From Misgurnus anguillicaudatus (Eukaryota > Chordata > Actinopteri > Cypriniformes > Cobitidae): a DNA stretch of 64,000 bases. Positions 1-49,514 of this stretch are shown here, piece after piece. Numbering within the stretch: the first letter of the stretch is position 1; the number at the start of each line of letters is the position of its first letter. The position numbers and the translations under genes are program-made. A model generated the notes under the pieces. That model was not told where the DNA came from. It searched no databases and saw only the letters and a list, made by a program, of their open reading frames with translations. The stretch covers positions 12,488,001 through 12,552,000 of the forward strand of contig NC_073346.2 of NCBI RefSeq assembly GCF_027580225.2, given 5' to 3'.

Positions 1-408
1 GAATCGAACTGAATCATTACACCGTTGTTCGGTTCACCTAGATAGATGGCGTCTCTGCTTTTAGTTGAGCACGGACACTCTAATGTTTGAGTAAGATGAT
101 GACACACAACTCGATGGATAGCTGGCTGAGCAAGTTCACAGCACTGAAGATTAAACATTAAAAAATGAAATGGTACTCTTATTCATGAATGAATGTGTAT
201 TATATTATTAGCTTGCTAATCGCTAATTAGGCATTATGCTAGGTAAACTTGCAAATGCCAAATGGATGTTTTGAGTCACTCCTTATTTAGTGAGTAGTGA
301 TCTAGTTTCTACCTTTGCACTTGCTAGCCTCAAAGCACCTGAAGAGTAACTGCTTGTTCATCATATACAACCTCCTGTATAACTTTTAACCAACGTTAGT
401 GTGCATGG
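1..408 (+). repeat. Left arm of large inverted repeat (truncated by window edge)
   Basis: These bases match the reverse complement of 1201-1606 over their whole length with one short indel, so the two form a fold-back with a spacer of about 790 bp. Homology runs up to base 1, so the outer end lies outside the window. The arm is AT-enriched relative to its partner: nearly every mismatch is A here against G in the partner read in the same orientation. It could be a terminal inverted repeat of a DNA transposon, a fold-back element, or one of two oppositely oriented insertions. No transposase was seen between the arms. Confidence 0.85.
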
Positions 409-1200
409 AGGAAGTACAGAAAAATAAGGGACGCCTAGCTGCCGCAGCGCGGGGGGCCACACGCGTCGGGGCTACGCCGGTGACCACAGTATCGATGTAC
501 GTGCCATTGGTGGTATATCATAACTTAAATGTGTTTTTTGTTTTCATAAAAATATTAACATTGATACCATTATAAGAAGATAGCTGCTATTGAAATCAGT
601 GTGAACAGATGCACTCAGTCTCTCAATATCAATACACAGCTATGACAATAATAAATAGGGCAACAAAGTAATAATAAAAATAATAATAATTTGTTACACT
701 TATTTAGCACTTTTCTGCAACACTCAAAGCGCTTTACATATAAAAGGGGGAATCTCCTCAACCACCACCACAAAAAATAAGCTTTGGAGGAACTTGTGAG
801 ATTTGAACCATATTTTTATTAACTTATTAAATTAACAGATCCATACGTAGTGGTACAAGGTGATTGACATGTAGTGGCACAAGGTGTTTGACAGCTTTGT
901 TCACCTATCGGATCATCAAATATCAATATCAATAATGTGTTATGTTTGTAACAACACTGGGTGTGTTAATTGTAACACATTGTTTTATGTTAAACTATTC
1001 AACACATTATGTGTTATTTCGTATTGATTTTGAGTTCATGTAAATAAAACACTAGATGTGTTGTCCGATGTCTCAATTTAACACATTCGTTTTAAGAGTG
1101 TATGTAAAACAAATCGCGTCCCGTATTGATTTGATACGCGTCATTTTGCCTGTAAATACGGGACGATTTCGTGTTTCACGGGACGTGGCATTGCCACCTT
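409..1200. other. Spacer between inverted-repeat arms
   Basis: Sequence between the two arms. It has a short CpG-rich block at about 440-500, an AT-rich TAA-rich stretch near 665-695, a motif near 700-740 that recurs in cyprinid repeats (CTCAAAGCGCTTTACAT), and repeated AACACATT-type words at 935-1095. No credible coding region was found. Confidence 0.5.
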
Positions 1201-1606
1201 CCATGCACACTAACGTTGGTTGAAAGTTATACATGAGGTTGTATATGATGAACAAGCAGCCACTCTCCAGGTGCCCCGAGGCCAGCAAGTGCAAAGGCAG
1301 AAACCAGATCACCACTCACCAAACAAGGAGCGACCCAAAACATCCACCCGGCATCCGCAAGTTCACCCAGCACGATGGCCAACCAGCGACCAGCAAGCCA
1401 ATAATACAATACACATTCATTCATGAACAAGAGCACCATTCCATTCTTCAATGTCCAATCTCCAGTGCTGCGAACCCGCCCAGCCAGCCATCCATCGAGT
1501 TGTGTGTCATCATCTTGCTCAGACATTGGAGTCCGTGCTCAACTAAAAGCAGAGACGCCATCCATCCAGGCGAACCGAACAACGGTGCAATGATTCAGCT
1601 CGACTC
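1201..1606 (-). repeat. Right arm of large inverted repeat
   Basis: Reverse complement of 1-408. It is clearly richer in G+C than the left arm and keeps CpG sites that are TpG/CpA in the left arm. The unusual composition leaves long open frames on both strands, which have no recognisable protein similarity and are not called as genes. Confidence 0.85.
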
Positions 1607-1739
1607 CCAAGACTGGAGAGACGATGCCTTCCCGACCGGCCAACAGGAACGCGGCCACGCCCACGACACAACCCCCACAGAGAAAGCAAAATCCCGACAC
1701 GAGAGCAAGAAACCGCATCGAGAGCAAAGAAAAGCGTTT

Positions 1740-2045
1740 TGATAGAAACACTTTTTTTTTAGAGAAAATGTTTTCACACTAATAGCAAAAAACATATACT
1801 TGAGAGATTTTTTTTTCTCAAAAATAATTTTAAAAATTTCAAATTTATACTTTTTATGTTCTATCATGAGAAAATTCTTTCTCTCAAAACTTTTTTTTAG
1901 TCTCAAATATTATTATTTTTTGCAATTGGTATGAAAACTTTTTCTCTCAAATATTCTTTTTTTTCTCATGAAATGCTTCTTTGCTATCAGTGTGATAACT
2001 TTTTCTTTCAAATAGTTTTATTTCTCTCAGATCATTTAATTTATC
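1740..2045. repeat. AT-rich degenerate repeat with CTCTCAAA-type words
   Basis: A low-complexity stretch in which CTCTCAAA/CTTTCAAA words and T-tracts recur several times, along with GTGATAACTTTTT-like and TATGAAAACTTTTT-like segments. It looks like a degenerate short tandem or clustered repeat. It may belong to the same mobile element as the adjacent inverted repeat, but that cannot be settled here. Confidence 0.45.
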
Positions 2046-3425
2046 GCATGTAATAAAGACGCATATCTCGCTCCATATAGACTCACCGTTCATCATGACA
2101 GTGAGAGTAAACACATGTCTTACTGTAATTGATGAGAGCTTTCCGTCTGTTAGCTGCTGAGCTAACACTGCTGATTTCGATCCCCAGGCTAAATGCCCAG
2201 CCTCCTTTAAAAAAACAAAAAAACAAGTGTTGCTTCTCTTTAAACCCCTGCTAACTTCAAGATAATCTCCACAGGAGAGGGACATGATAATGAGTAAACA
2301 TTAAGACTTCACACAGCCACAAGTGTTCCTTTATTCATGTTATTTGTGCATTCAATATTAATACTATGTACATACATTATCTCATTAGCAGACTACACCA
2401 ATCTCTGAACGTATATCAAGTTAAAATGCCACTGTTTTAAATAATTTTTAAATGATTTAATTGCTCAGTTGTGCTTTGTGTGAAATCTACAGTTCATTAT
2501 GTACTGAGAAATGTTTACAATTCCTGTTTGTTTCAAAGTGATTCTCTAGTATGTTTATAATATGTGCTTTATGTTTACATTGGAAGTTTGAGGCTTTACC
2601 TTTTGAACTTGTGCAACACAAGAACAGAATGCTTATGCAAACATCATATTTCCATTTTAAGGAACATTTAGGGAGAAATTAATTGAGGGCAGGTTTTAAG
2701 AAATTAAGCTAAAACATCCCAAAACCATCACAGGAGAGTTATTGGCTCAGTGTCTTTGCGTTCAATCCAAGACAAACCTAATATTTATTTATTCATTGGA
2801 GTGTTTGGTAATTAGCCCAGTATTCTAGTTGTTACTAAAGAGTAAAAATAAAAAATATTTATACATCCTAAAACAAGCTATAGGAAAAAATCCTGTAGAG
2901 ATTTTTATATTTTTATATATTTACTTTTCACAGTTTTTCCATGTTTAAGCAGTCCAAATGTATCTGAACCACGGCAACATATAACCATATAACACTATAT
3001 TAAAAGGTGCTATAAAATAAAAAACCTCTACTTACCAAGGCATAGATAAATAATAAAGAGTTCTATACATGGTAATGGCATATTGTGAGCCTCAAATGCG
3101 TTTGTTTCCTTATTTTTATGTAAACCTCATGCATGCAAAACACTGCTGGAAAACAGGACAATCTTAACATAACACCAACTGTGACATTACAGTCGTGATG
3201 TGCACCCGAACATTAAATGACACATTAAATTAATTACAATGTTGTTAAAATGCTAAAAACAAAGTTGTGACTGTTGAGTTAGCGTTATATGCTAGTTAAT
3301 GCTATATGCTAGCGTTTAGGCTAAAGTTCTACTATTAACTTTACAGTTACTTTTTGCAGGTCCATACTGAAAAAATCCCCACAAACTTACCACTCACAGG
3401 ACTCCAGACTAACTTTTTTCACTAG
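2046..3425. other. Intronic sequence, no feature recognised
   Basis: AT-rich non-coding sequence, presumed part of a large cobl intron. I see no exon with splice sites and no clear transposon ends. Confidence 0.4.
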
Positions 3426-17377: not shown

Positions 17378-20300
17378 GTACACAAACATACTCTTTCACC
17401 TTAACAGACCTTGACAATAAATTAAAATATGTGGCACTATGAGTGTCTTACTTGCCGGAAAATACAGCTACAACTTCTACACAACTTATAGTGGTGTTTG
17501 GTTTTTGGAACATGGTAGCCTCAAAATGGTCTATCATCCAGTGTTTCCCACAGACTTTGTTACCACAGACAGTTTATTTGTGCCGGCACATTCGCCAGAG
17601 GTAGTGGGTGAATAATGGGTAACTAATATGTGGTCAAGTCTGTCATTTTCGGATGCGGAGCTAAGCACAAAGTCACAGAAAATGCAGTGCACACAACCAC
17701 ACGAAATAGCATTTTGTGTCCTTAACACGCAAATATATATATATATATGTAAGTCAAGTACAAAAACCAAGCATCAGTGTCTGGGTGTGTGTACAGAATC
17801 TGTCATGCAAAAGAGAGGAAGTTGAAAACACACTGTGCAATTTTTATTTTGTGGCTGTCGCCACATATAAATGAATGTATGGGAAACACTGTATCATCTA
17901 GACCAGCTTGAAACCAACAACCATGTTCCCAAACCAACAACCATATTAACATGACATGGCATCCAAACCTGTGTAATGCGATATGACCGGATTTTTAACA
18001 AGAACTAAAAATGTAGGGCAGGACCTAAATGCAAGTACACACCAGAAACTCCTGAACACTCCTGAAACTAGGATGCTTTTCCAGTATCATAACATAATGC
18101 CTGGCTGTTTGCAGTCCCTAGGTCATGGGTCTCCAATGTTGCTCCTGGAGGGCACCTGTCCTGCATATTTTAGTTCCAACTCTACTCCAACCCACCTGCC
18201 TCTAATTTTTAGGTAGCCCTAAAAAACTTGATAAGCAGGTACAGATGTTTTTGCTTGGGGTTGGAATTGAAATCTGCAAGACAGGTGCCCTCCATGAAAA
18301 ACGTTGGAGACCCATGATCTTTCATGAGTGGAGTTTCAGGAGTAAACTGGCATTAAGGTCCGACTGGATCTTGGAGACCCATGGCCTAGGTCAGGGGTAG
18401 GCAACTCGGTCCTGGACTGCCGATGTCCTGCAGAGTTAAGCCCCAGCTGTAATCAAGCACACCTGGACAACTAATCAATGTCTAAAGAGTTACCTGAAAA
18501 CTATAGGTAGGCGAGGTTTTGTCAGGGTTGGAACTAAAATCTGCAGGATGTTGGCACTCTAGGCAAAACAACTTTCAACATGAACAACTATGAACATAGC
18601 TGAAAAATTAAATAGCATCAGTTTTCATATAGTTCAGAATTTTTACATGTCTATGAGAAACATTTCTGAAGTCATTCTTATATTCACCACACCTAAATGA
18701 CAGCTCATTGTTTGAGCTCTTAAAAAACACAAATGGATCCATTGCTTTATTGCACTTTAAGTTGTCTGCTGGACAGGAATCAGACTCTCTCAGACAAGAG
18801 TGGAGACAGAGTATTTATCTTTCTCCTGTCTGTTTATCACCATCAGATTATTCCCACAGTTCCACCAGTCTTACATTTATGCATTACCAGCCTGCCAGGT
18901 TCCTCAAGGACTGACTAGCTTTTTAAAACCTCAATTTTTTATGTCTAGATGTATGTGAACAGAGCCTTTAGCAAAGCCTGCAGCTTTACTTTCAGTGCTG
19001 TAGGATTTCAAACATCTCTTAACATCCCTTCTTTATTTCAAGGGTTGTTAGTTTTTCCACTGTCATCTTATAAGTCAGGATCTTTCAAACCTTGATTTTG
19101 AAACCCTAATCGCTATGTTTCACTAAGTTCAAAGGCTGTATTTAGAGTTTAGAAAAGTTCAGGACTGACAGTCATATTCTGGTGTAGTGTGAACGTGGCC
19201 AATCATGGTAGTCACTGAAGAATGGTGGAATCCTTATTGTGTATAAATAGACTTTAAAACCTCTATGAGCCAAGGACAATAATAATAATAATAATAATAA
19301 TGTACTTGGAAAGGGTTTAGATTAAGCCAGGATTTGGCCTTGGTTATATTAGGACATTTTAATAGTTTTTACAATCAAACCTTTCAAAAATATATTTTTG
19401 TTATTCAACTGCCCTGTCCAGAAAACCGCCCCATAGTGTAATTCAAAGATTTTAGGTAATTTTTTAATATTTTAAAGTATTAGCATGACACTCAAAGCAG
19501 GATTCAGTTGCTCTTCATAAAACTTCCAGCTAACATGTTTTTTACTCCTCATGCAAGTACTGGGAATATACAGCGAGGACATCAGCCAATCAAGAGACAG
19601 AACAGTTATGAGGAGGATCCAGAGATCACAGCTCAGATACACCTGACCTTAGCCGCTTTAGATGCAAATCTAGCTGGTGAGTTACTTATGGACAATTGAT
19701 AGAGAACAGAAGAAAGAAATATAGTTATAAAATAACGTTTTCAAAAGTTTTTTTATATTTTCTAATAAAACAAGAACTTCATCCTGTAGACAAGCCTATT
19801 TATTTTTTCTTGAATATTAGACATGAATCAGTCAGATGGAGGATCTATGTTTGTGGATGATGAAATCCCAGTGTCTGTTGTCGACATGGACATTCCAGTT
19901 ACAACTATCGATGAAGTTCCTACTGACGACACATCCAGCAAGAAGGAGCATTTGGTGCCAGCATCAGCCAGAACTTCAAACATTACCAAACAATCACGCA
20001 CACTATATGAGGCTATTCAAAACAAAAACAACAATGCCAGTCTGACAGCGAAGAACGTGAGTCCATCTTCAGGCATTCAGAAGCAGTTACAAGATCCTAA
20101 GCTTACGAAAAACACGAGTCCGTCTCCAGACAACCAGAAGCAGTTGCAAGAGCCAAAAATTACAGACATTAAAAAAATTGTGAGTCCACCTCCAGAAAAC
20201 CAAAAGCAGTTGCAAGAGCCTAAGCCCAGTGACATTAAGGAACAGAGGTTTGCCTTGAACCATGACACTAAGGGTAAAGCTAAAACTGAAGGACCAAATG

Positions 20301-23300
20301 GTCAGAATAACACTGTATCTCAAAAGCCGCAAAGTCAAGTTGTGCGTCAAACTGTTCAAAGCATTCAGAAGGTTTCTGATGACAAACTAAAATCCTTACC
20401 TGTGGTCCGAAAGCTTAGCACAGAGACTGTAAATGAAGAAAGGATGCCTGTTAACACAATGCACGGTAAGATCACCCAGAGCTCGGTCTCACGGTTTGGA
20501 ATGAAAACTTTTGTAGTGGTCCCTCCCAAACCGTCTGTGTCCCAGACTCAAAAGCCTGCAGGTTCTCTAGTCGTGGGTGCCATTAAGATCGACGAACAAG
20601 GAAACATGGTTACACGAAGACAGATTAACACTACCTCAGAGAAACACGGCAGACATGAAGAGGTCACTAATGTGAAGACAAAATCCACCCCAGGACAAGC
20701 CAAAGCTTTCTGGAACTTGGCAGAGAAACAAGAACAAGACCAATCAACGATGGCCAACCAAGGACCCACGGTGAAGAGCAGAGATACTAATGGTTTCAAG
20801 CCCTCATCTGTATCTGCACCCTTTAAACTTTCAGAGAAATCACACATTGAGGAAACACCCAAAGAGGTGATTATATTAGAAAGGAAATCCATACCTGTGG
20901 TGGCAAATAAGCCTTCATTTCTAGAGCCTGTGGAAAATCCAGGTGAAGGTCGAGATCTCTCTTTTCTGAAACCTTCCAGAAGAACATCCAGCCAATATGT
21001 AGCTTCTGCCATTGCTAAAAATAGTAGCATTCCCAATCCTAAAATACATACCATTCAGGAGCCACCTGAGTCTGTGGGTAAGGTTCAAAAACTACCTTTC
21101 AATCAACCGTTCAAGAATGAGGGTAAACCTCCTAACACACCTTCCGTGGGTTTGTACAAACCTGCAACCACCTTAAAACCAACAGAACGTTCGACGACTT
21201 TTACAGGGCCTACACGCTCGCAAAGTAACCCCAGTTATGTTGCAGAAAAGGTGGTGATTTCGGAAAACTTCAGCAGTGTTAAAGAAGAAACATTTCTTGG
21301 AGTAGACAAAACCAAATCATTGGACTTACATTCTACAAATAAAGTACAGTCTTTAACACAAAAATCTGCTCACATTAAACCCATTAAATCTGAAGAAGCC
21401 ACATCCATCAGCAAATTCCCAGACACCTCCTTTCCTCGACAGATGCCAACAGACTCCACACGTCCACCGCTAGGGAATAAGTCGGAAGTACACAAATCTG
21501 AGCCTTCGTCAGAACCCAACCAGGGTAACATGTTCGGATCAGTTAAGAAGTTTAAACCTGTTATTTTCAAGCCTGTCCAGAAGGACGCTTCTCTTCATAG
21601 TTCACTAATGGAGGCCATTCAGTCTGGAGAGGGGATTGAACGCCTTAAAAAGGTAAACTATAAAATACAGCATGTATCTTAGGCCCTGTCCACACGACAT
21701 AGGTATTTTCAAAACTGAAGCTTATCAGAGCCGACATGTGGCACAGATGTGCGTTGCCAACCCAGGTTCGATTCCTGGCTTGAGGTCCATTTGCCGGTCC
21801 TGTACCCACTCTCCCTACTCAGTATTTTCCTGTCCTCTCCTTAACTTCTGCTTTTAAAATAAAGGCAAAAATGCCTCAAAATAACTTTTTTCTGTGCAAT
21901 TCGGCCATTCTTCCACACCAAGGGGCGCTCTTTCTGTCTCTCTCGTGTAGCCAACATGGCAGTGAATTTAAGCAATAGCAAGCAATAAGCTGGCTCCAAA
22001 AGGGAGTCAATCCCATATACACCCATGTTAAAATGCCCAACGTTAGGACATTACAACCTGGTACAAAAAGCGTTTTGGTTTATATAGCTAATTTTGCCCT
22101 TCATGACAACTGTAAGGGGGTGAATTTTTTTGTAGCTCATCTGTTTAAATTATAGCCTTACAGTTCAGCATAACTAGGGGTGTGGCCACTTGAGTGACAG
22201 GTGAATTGCCACTGCTATCACTACCATCGAGCTAGGCTAGCATGGTTTCAGCAAACAGGCACCTCAGCTCCACTCACATTCCGCCTCTTTGGCCATTTTC
22301 GGATATCCGCGAATGACGCGTGGTGGCGCGCTTGCTAAGATGGCGACAGCAGGCTCTGCTAACTTTGGGCTTTAAAAAATGCTCTTCAGAAACCTAAGAG
22401 TGACATCATGGACACTACGTCCATGTTTTATACAGTCAATGGTCTACACACCAAGACAGTATCAGGTCACTAAAACCAAACCTTTCTGAAAAGGGTGATT
22501 TTTTTCAGAAATTTAGCTCTCAGTGTTGTGTAGCTGCTAAAACCAGAGATTTTGGCTTGTGATGTCGGAGTGCACGCTTGTTATCTCCTTTGTTTGATGC
22601 CAGATTGTGCTATCACATGGCTTTATGGTTAGGGTTATATCGCCCCCTGTTGGTTTGGCATGTTCTTGACAGCATTTAATATCTTGTTATTGCGTTTTCA
22701 TGTGGATTTTTTGTAAACCGTGCTTGTGTGGACAATACTTTTTTTAAATGGAGGTAAAAATCTGTTTATAAAAATACCTGTGTACATGTGGACTAGGCCT
22801 TATTGTGCAATCAAAGTCATAGTTTTTGTAATATATTTTTACATAATATAACAGTGTTGTTTTCTTACTTGTTTGTGCTCAGGTATCTCCTTCTAGCAAT
22901 AGCACTATTAAGAAGCCGTCATTTGGTGATGCCGAGAATGAGCACTCGGCACTTCTGTCTGCAATAAGAGCTTCAACCAACACTTCCAGACTGAAGAAGG
23001 TAAGCTAATTGACATAGGACACTACATGTTATGTTACAAAGAGAGTCAGGCCGACTACCAAAACACACGTGTAGCCAATCAACAGTAAGGGGCGTGTCTA
23101 CTAACCGACATCCTTGCTGGGGTTGCGTGTGTGGGGCGGGTCTATAAAAAGAAGGTCCAGATTCTATTGGGTAGGTGTGTATGTTTTGGTGATTTCAAAT
23201 GTCAACATTGGCTTTCAAACATTGTGCACTCCGCCTTTAAAGTCCCCATGAAATCAAAACTGACAATTCTTATTTTTTTATGTAATAATGCAGTGTTTAT

Positions 23301-48285: not shown

Positions 48286-49514
48286 CAGTGGCGGCTCGTG
48301 ACTGCTTTTCTGAGGGGCGCACATTCAAAATATGTGTTCGGAGTGTCATGTCTGTTGCTCATGATTTCAAAAAAATTTGTTTGGTGCATCATGTGAACCA
48401 TGTGCATTGCGTGTTTTGTCAAAATAAGTGCCTACTGCACACGCGTCAAAACCGTTTATGATAAAAGAGACGCTCACGTTCACAAAATACACGCAAGACA
48501 CTCCCTTAAAGGGATAGTTCGGCCAAATATGATATTAAACCCATGATTTACTTACCCCCAAGCTGTCCGAGATGCATATGTCCATCGTTTTTCAAACTAA
48601 CACATTTTCAGTTATTTTGGAAAATGTTTTGGATCTTTCAGTTGATTAAATGTGAAGTTACGGGGTGCACGACCTTCAAGTCCAGGGGATGTGCATTCAT
48701 CCTTCACAAAATAAATCCAAACGGCTCCAGGATGATGGATAGGGGTCTTCTGAGGGTGATCCGCGCGGTGCTGTTGTAGAAATATCCACATTTAAAACTT
48801 TATCAACCAAAATAACTACCTTCCGGTAGCGCCGCCATCTTGGACTCCTCTGTATTCAGGAGAGAGTACTATCGTAGTGTATGCACTTTTCTTAGTGACG
48901 TAGGACAAATTCAGAGCAGCAGAGTAGCCTCTGTATGCTGCGTAAGCTCTCATCCTGAATGCGGATGCGACTAAGATGGCGGCATTACCGGATGCGAGTT
49001 ATTTTCGTTTATAAAGTTTTATACTGCGCAGATTACCCTCAGAGGACCTTTGTTGATCATCGTGGAGCCGTTTGGATTTGTTTTGGGGAGGATGGATGCA
49101 CATTTTTTGGACGTGGACCCTATAGCTTCACATTTGATTAACTGAAAGATCTAAAACATTTTCTAAATAACTGAAAATGTCATCGTCTGAGGGATGATGG
49201 ACATATGCATCTCGGACGGCCTCGGGGTGAGCAAATCATGTGTTTAATATCATTTTTGGCCGAACTATCCCTTTAACAGTAAACTCTGATTACGCATGAG
49301 AATATCTGGCAAACGCGAGCGTCTCTTTTATCATAAACCCTTTAGACGTGTCTGCAGCAGGCACTTGTTTTGACAAAACACGTGATGCACATAAGTTCAC
49401 TCGATGCACCGAACACATATTTTGAAATTACGAACCACACACATGAAGCGCTACATACATGTTGTGACGAACTTCGCATCGTGCGCCCTCGAAAAAAGTC
49501 ATGGGCCACCACTG
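48286..49514. mobile_element. hAT-like element, TIR CAGTGGCGG, perfect 8-bp TSD
   Basis: CAGTGGCGGCTCGTGACTG on the left and CATGGGCCACCACTG on the right, flanked by CTAGTTTT on both sides (48278-48285, 49515-49522). Inner opposing blocks include TTTATGATAAAAGAGACGCT / AGCGTCTCTTTTATCATAAA. It is inserted in the outer MITE and split by 48510-49272. Confidence 0.92.
48510..49272. mobile_element. Innermost palindromic TTAA element
   Basis: TTAA (48506-48509) then AGGGATAGTTCGGCCAAATA; TTTTGGCCGAACTATCCCT then TTAA (49273-49276). The halves oppose along CCGAGATGCATATGTCCATC / GATGGACATATGCATCTCGG and further in. Third level of the nest. Confidence 0.9.

Follow-up and report, generated by a model that had tools for sequence, protein, structure and literature searches.

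The question raised by this locus is why the two arms of a long inverted repeat should differ from each other almost only in one direction. The window (the whole stretch analysed here, 64 kb, C10:12488001-12552000 of a 1.12-Gb genome) begins inside a transposon that spans its start. When its first 409 bases are aligned with the opposite arm by BLAST (1-409 against 1606-1200), there are 48 sites with A in the left and G in the right arm and none of the reverse kind, five T/C sites and no C/T sites, and two transversions; a 2-bp indel is also visible. A first-pass annotation had estimated this imbalance by eye, and its context counts were likewise close to ours. The base 5' of the A is T at 23 of the 48 sites, A at 13, C at 7, and G at 5. 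Read as G, the variable base lies in a CpG at 8/48 sites (about 7 had been estimated) and is followed by another G at 24/48 (about half).

The inverted pair is real, though the annotation was wrong to end it at position 1606. The element is 2.54 kb long. Its terminal inverted repeats (TIRs) measure 876-878 bp and enclose a centre of about 790 bp (410..1199, no strand), and its tips read TATGGAGCGAG... The inner 409 bp of the left arm occupy 1..409 on the plus strand, and the outer 467 bp lie outside the window, where the arm starts with its tip at C10:12487534. The right arm runs over 1200..2077 (minus strand, tip to centre) and is followed by the right copy of a 6-bp target site duplication (TSD), TAGACT (2078..2083, plus strand), the left copy of which is just beyond the window edge. 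Among 24 copies with both ends read, the TSD is exact in twenty-two (15/16, 2/2, and 5/6 in three sets; the exceptions are L025 and L068), and because these carry their own exact duplications the copies represent separate insertions. The 16-bp tip has 92 exact matches in the genome, compared to none for a reversed control. With a TSD of constant length and conserved tips, this is a DNA transposon.

Reading the frames of three long copies (L018, L027, and L065), we recognised no transposase or integrase gene belonging to the element, and no autonomous relative was found among the long copies: L018 contains a LINE, L065 a Tc1 insertion, and L027 no recognisable gene inside the element. The LINE (L018:3025-7090, within C31:4338500-4347500) sits inside the centre of its host copy. 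It encodes an ORF2 of 942 aa with RVT_1 (3e-29) and endonuclease domains, preceded by an upstream frame of 408 aa, and centre columns 263-292 are present on both of its flanks, as a target duplication would give.

Although the annotation held that the ancestral arm could not be decided, the family majority decides it. Compared with the majority of 53 arms and arm pieces, the left arm differs in only 6 of 876 columns, namely three transversions, two C>T, and one A>G, with neither T>C nor G>A. The right arm, by contrast, has 60 A>G changes, 3 T>C, and 6 transversions but no G>A or C>T. The left arm is thus the normal one, and it is the right arm that has changed, with A turned to G on the minus strand. 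G is never the majority state at these 60 sites among the other 52 arms and pieces, the lowest share of A being 0.58. The changed stretch covers 1260..1714 (minus strand; the outer limit of about 1714 is approximate, having been converted from alignment columns) and is T-poor on the plus strand. It consists of two tracts, with 18 changes in arm columns 363-510 and 42 in columns 586-815.

This polarity bears directly on one of the two mechanisms put forward in the annotation, namely C deamination of the left arm by an AID/APOBEC-like enzyme. Once the changes are polarised nothing speaks for it: the presumed target matches the family majority in all but those six columns, and G>A and C>T are no higher in changed than in unchanged arms. 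In twenty-one changed arms taken together, A>G (480) and T>C (481) far outnumber G>A (15) and C>T (22), and the window's right arm has neither G>A nor C>T. We give this explanation virtually no probability.

Similar changes recur across the family. Loci were drawn using both arms of the window's element as queries, followed by two further searches; since one of these arms is changed, the share of changed arms in the sample is not a genome frequency. Ten or more A>G or T>C changes are present in 30 of 65 arms or pieces, where they form blocks of a single type. Along these thirty arms the label switches between A>G and T>C 47 times, whereas 1000 shuffles gave 240 switches on average and never fewer than 207, which rules out chance as an explanation. 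A>G on one strand per tract, as an ADAR-type enzyme would leave it, is what is observed. A later set of 62 arms contains 65 tracts, with a median of 91 bp and 13 changes and a maximum length of 409 bp, and 923 of the 1795 A's inside them are changed.

The changed arms have different, overlapping sets of sites on either strand. L030 is the most similar to the window's right arm, having 45 of its 60 G states in common, while 34 of the 52 other arms and pieces have at most two (some cover only part of the sites). A given range of arm columns can carry A>G in one copy and T>C in another, and single arms can be strand mosaics. In 132 overlapping pairs of tracts, two of them identical, site agreement is 0.71, where triplet context alone would predict 0.61. 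This excess means that some tracts may be shared by descent, but judging by their site patterns most look like separate events at common hot spots.

The annotation had named two old subfamilies carrying these same differences as the finding that would overturn its reading. We looked for such a case and did not find one, given the 34/52 arms with almost none of the window's changes and the differences among the changed arms. A broader version, in which gene conversion has shuffled at least two old subfamilies or has been biased towards GC, could draw on the marker differences that distinguish left from right arms and on tract agreement a little above expectation. It is extremely improbable given that opposite versions occupy the same columns, that so many arms lack the window's G states, and that each tract changes one strand only and spares the centre.

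We also compared the two arms within single elements. Both arms were at least partly read in 28 elements. At a cut of 10 changes, thirteen of these are marked in one arm, eight in both, and seven in neither; some of the arms are partial, and the sample is enriched for changed copies rather than random. In the short copies L066-L068 the differences between the two arms do not favour one direction, whereas the arms of L069 and L070 differ one way. L070 (C3:18883250-18885470) probably has a changed left arm, its unpolarised differences being 13 C/T and 6 G/A against 1 T/C and 1 A/G. An older element, L014, has T>C tracts in both arms at about columns 140-178, as though one had been copied from the other.

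Neighbouring bases strongly affect which A's are changed. Within tracts, 859 of 1649 A's (about half) are changed, and the proportion depends on the 5' base (T 342/462, 0.74; A 303/544, 0.56; C 145/369, 0.39; G 69/274, 0.25; P = 4e-42) and on the 3' base (G 207/305, 0.68; A 282/546, 0.52; C 118/231, 0.51; T 252/567, 0.44; P = 2e-9). Effects at -3, -2, and +3 are weaker, and there is none at +2. The extreme triplets are TAG, changed in 112 of 122 cases (92 per cent), and GAC, changed in 3 of 18 (17 per cent); CAG (44/55) and TAT (114/167) are intermediate. T or A is thus favoured and G avoided on the 5' side, and G is favoured on the 3' side. This is the order of neighbours preferred by ADAR enzymes. 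Zebrafish RNA editing shows the same depletion of G before and enrichment of G after the edited A (PMC8096273).

The changes could instead come from error-prone synthesis by polymerase eta or iota where the inverted repeat stalls forks or breaks. Both enzymes make T>C/A>G errors, and the WA preference of polymerase eta resembles the 5' bias; such errors would, moreover, be confined to the arms. However, about half of the A's in a tract change with no excess of other errors, CAG is changed more often than TAT, and the preference for a 3' G lies outside the WA rule. We therefore consider polymerase error highly improbable.

The element's own centre provides a comparison of common locus and age, as only the arms can pair with each other. 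Across 42,063 arm columns we counted 561 A>G, 466 T>C, 52 G>A, and 60 C>T changes (1027 against 112 in reverse). Centres of the same family (37 pieces, 19,478 columns) had no such excess, with 32 A>G, 22 T>C, 40 G>A, and 23 C>T (54 against 63). The resulting odds ratio is 10.7 (Fisher P = 6.6e-28, a guide only because sites within a copy are not independent). The changes are limited to sequence that can form a double strand, as is characteristic of ADAR-type editing.

A second, unrelated family in the same genome shows the same one-way pattern. The insertion in L065 is a Tc1/mariner element, identified by Tc1-type transposase domains between its arms (HTH_Tnp_Tc3_2, 2.6e-20; DDE_3, 7.7e-10), and its arms are 211 bp long. 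The left arm is 99 per cent identical to 39 other places among the matches listed. We selected copies by their unchanged left arm and examined the right arms at 25 places, two of which had no arm; for 20 places, copies near the unchanged right-arm type were omitted. A sample picked in this way has no bearing on frequency or on left arms. As a baseline we used the unchanged right-arm type common to L072 and L075, both of which are among the twenty-three arms. Relative to this type, the right arms contain 109 A>G and 36 T>C changes (145 against 2 in reverse: 0 G>A and 2 C>T), 9 transversions, and 5 indels. Ten of the 23 have at least six A>G/T>C changes, seven of them A>G (the transposase-sense strand) and three T>C. 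L095 has 27 A>G changes and L093 has 15 T>C changes, with nothing else in either arm. By 5' neighbour, the changes per available A were 32/14 (T), 50/38 (A), 16/18 (C), and 11/13 (G). Centres aligned for five copies were again balanced (8 A>G and 10 T>C against 9 G>A and 10 C>T; 18 versus 19); right-arm figures for the C19 copy were excluded because of misalignment.

Two of these Tc1 arms, L071 and L085, have a C>G in common, and every change of L085 is also present in L071. From sequence comparison this nesting hints that a changed copy has moved on, although hot spots would be another possible cause. The A>G at Tc1 column 71, which is seen on its own in L084 and L098 as well, may be an ordinary variant.

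The tracts could in principle reflect faulty sequencing or assembly, since nanopore base-calling is known to break down at inverted repeats, and miscalls and skipped bases in inverted duplications have been described (PMC7229812). Yet the 21 arms with at least 20 changes have 0.86 G>A, 1.26 C>T, 6.4 transversions, and 3.9 deletions per kb, no higher than the 1.6, 1.65, 7.7, and 6.8 per kb for the same classes in 25 arms with at most six changes (a comparison that omits the 16 intermediate arms of the 62). Other loci have near-identical arms that are unchanged, and the sequence context is that of a deaminase. The C>G and nested A>G changes of L071 and L085 also suggest inheritance, with the same proviso about hot spots. 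An artefact is, in our judgement, very unlikely.

One-strand A>G in the ends of young transposons suggests that editing of the RNA-hairpin type can be written into inherited DNA. ADAR-type deamination of a duplex is very probably behind the changes. For the route into the genome, we lean, with a good deal less assurance, towards a hairpin RNA that is hyper-edited by an ADAR-type enzyme and then copied into germline DNA in patches. A read-through transcript would fold back on itself, with the arms forming long, nearly perfect dsRNA and the centre a single-stranded loop. The deaminase would convert about half of the A's in duplex stretches to inosine, with a preference for TAG-like sites. Patches of edited RNA, or cDNA made from them, might then serve in the germline as templates for repair or conversion of a genomic arm. 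Inosine would be copied as G, leaving A>G fixed on one strand in tracts of the observed median length. The window's right arm would be one product of this process, and the Tc1/mariner copies would undergo it as well. The annotation had offered a version of this route, with A-to-I editing of a hairpin transcript fixed into the right arm. Polarity, the ADAR neighbour preference, restriction to pairing arms, recurrence, and the second family agree with it, and the entry into DNA is the step that we infer.

Several observations favour RNA as the substrate. The centre, which would form the loop, is spared. Telomeric RNA:DNA hybrids that were fully matched showed no significant editing by full-length ADAR1p110, which acted only on A-C mismatches (PMC7955049), and this favours a dsRNA substrate. 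We also count in its favour that the Tc1 changes are on the transposase-sense strand in 7 of 10 arms (the other strand in three). About seven places in the genome, on C6, C10, C16, C17, C21, C23, and C25, hold exon clusters for the ADAR deaminase domain (PF02137). In zebrafish, RNA editing peaks in the ovary and testes, and the most edited sequences include a palindromic repeat; counting against our reading, the same paper does not find editing enriched in particular repeat families (PMC8096273). RNA-templated repair by polymerase theta has been reported (as cited in PMC8391894).

Alternatively, ADAR might deaminate A's in DNA directly, within RNA:DNA hybrids at the arms (e.g. where a hairpin-prone transcript stabilises R-loops in one arm), with replication fixing inosine as G. 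The ADAR context fits this route equally well, and editing by ADAR1p110 of the DNA strands of hybrids is reported (PMC7955049). It would also account for one-armed elements and for mosaics of both strands within one arm, and if the window's plus strand is transcribed, the changed strand is the template. Ordinary R-loops, however, would take in the centre, which is unchanged. The proportion of A's changed in tracts (923/1795) is hard to reconcile with the lack of significant editing in fully matched hybrids (PMC7955049), and the changed strand of the Tc1 arms is sense, and thus non-template, in seven of ten cases and the other strand in three. We regard direct deamination as possible but unlikely.

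Other evidence counts against copying from RNA. A hairpin edited as a whole should mark both arms, and the thirteen one-armed elements of 28 do not fit this expectation. Insertions of the element look like ordinary DNA transposition. Left/right markers give a mixed picture: in right arms, markers in tracts or within 10 bp of them have the left-arm state in 4/8 cases, compared to 2/28 outside, while the corresponding figures for left arms are 0/6 in tracts and 3/27 outside. The right-arm pattern is a weak sign of templating, being small, post hoc, and absent in left arms. Overall, 10 of 14 in-tract markers keep the state of their own arm, and together with the one-armed elements this fits direct DNA deamination at least as well as copying from RNA.

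Elsewhere in the window, the other repeat pairs show no comparable one-way excess. A long open frame at 19814-21682 has an end that matches cordon-bleu (PDB 4jhd_C, E = 1.8e-4) and no Pfam match. We had considered an AT skew at 20-22 kb as a trace of editing and rejected it, as it coincides with this frame. An old 1.1-kb palindrome at 48346-49446 is 73 per cent self-complementary, with mixed, unpolarised transitions (23 G/A and 22 T/C against 12 A/G and 10 C/T), and could be an older case.

We tentatively propose, as a possibility to be weighed, that a vertebrate germline harbours an ADAR-driven mutator acting on fold-back transposons, with edits entering the genome through either RNA-templated synthesis or direct DNA deamination. 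An adenosine-deaminase signature in the inherited DNA of cut-and-paste transposons would imply either that edits made in RNA return to the germline genome or that ADARs mutate DNA directly. The proposed mutator would be a repeat-directed form of point mutation, RIP-like in effect but with A-to-G chemistry, and a natural route from RNA editing to inherited DNA. Estimated transposon ages would be affected, as would estimated rates of A>G mutation at inverted repeats, and the loss of matched ends in young TIR elements could be explained. This one genome holds at least tens of polarised tracts (65, plus 10 Tc1 arms), each with a centre as a built-in control, and so the question is directly testable.

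The closest parallels are found among known systems of directed mutation and editing. RIP of fungi is a dense, directional mutation of repeats in the germline, as in the arms described here, but it is C-to-T, requires no hairpin, and depends on other enzymes. APOBEC editing of retroelements also leaves deaminase-type clusters in genomic copies of mobile elements; as described in PMC2873906, it differs in that the changes are G-to-A, arise by cytidine deamination, and affect retroelements, whereas ours are A-to-G and restricted to the TIR arms of DNA transposons. Deaminase hypermutation of mobile DNA is thus already known for C deamination, and it is the A-to-G chemistry, the target, and the element class for which we found no description. 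Searches of the open-licence literature gave no precedent for A-to-G hypermutation of genomic transposons, though one may exist elsewhere. The action of ADAR on RNA:DNA hybrids resembles our case in its DNA adenines and UAG context, with the difference that the edits reported were at A-C mismatches in telomeric hybrids rather than in germline mutation tracts (PMC7955049). Models of somatic hypermutation that combine a deaminase with reverse transcription likewise propose that edited RNA is copied back to DNA, but for somatic mutation in immunity and cancer rather than for germline transposon arms (PMC5704389, PMC11817618). A further likeness is to ADAR hyper-editing of inverted-repeat RNA in zebrafish, which is A-to-G with G depleted upstream and enriched downstream and occurs in dense clusters in self-pairing repeats such as ANGEL (PMC8096273). 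There the RNA differs from an unchanged DNA, whereas here the genome sequence itself has been changed.
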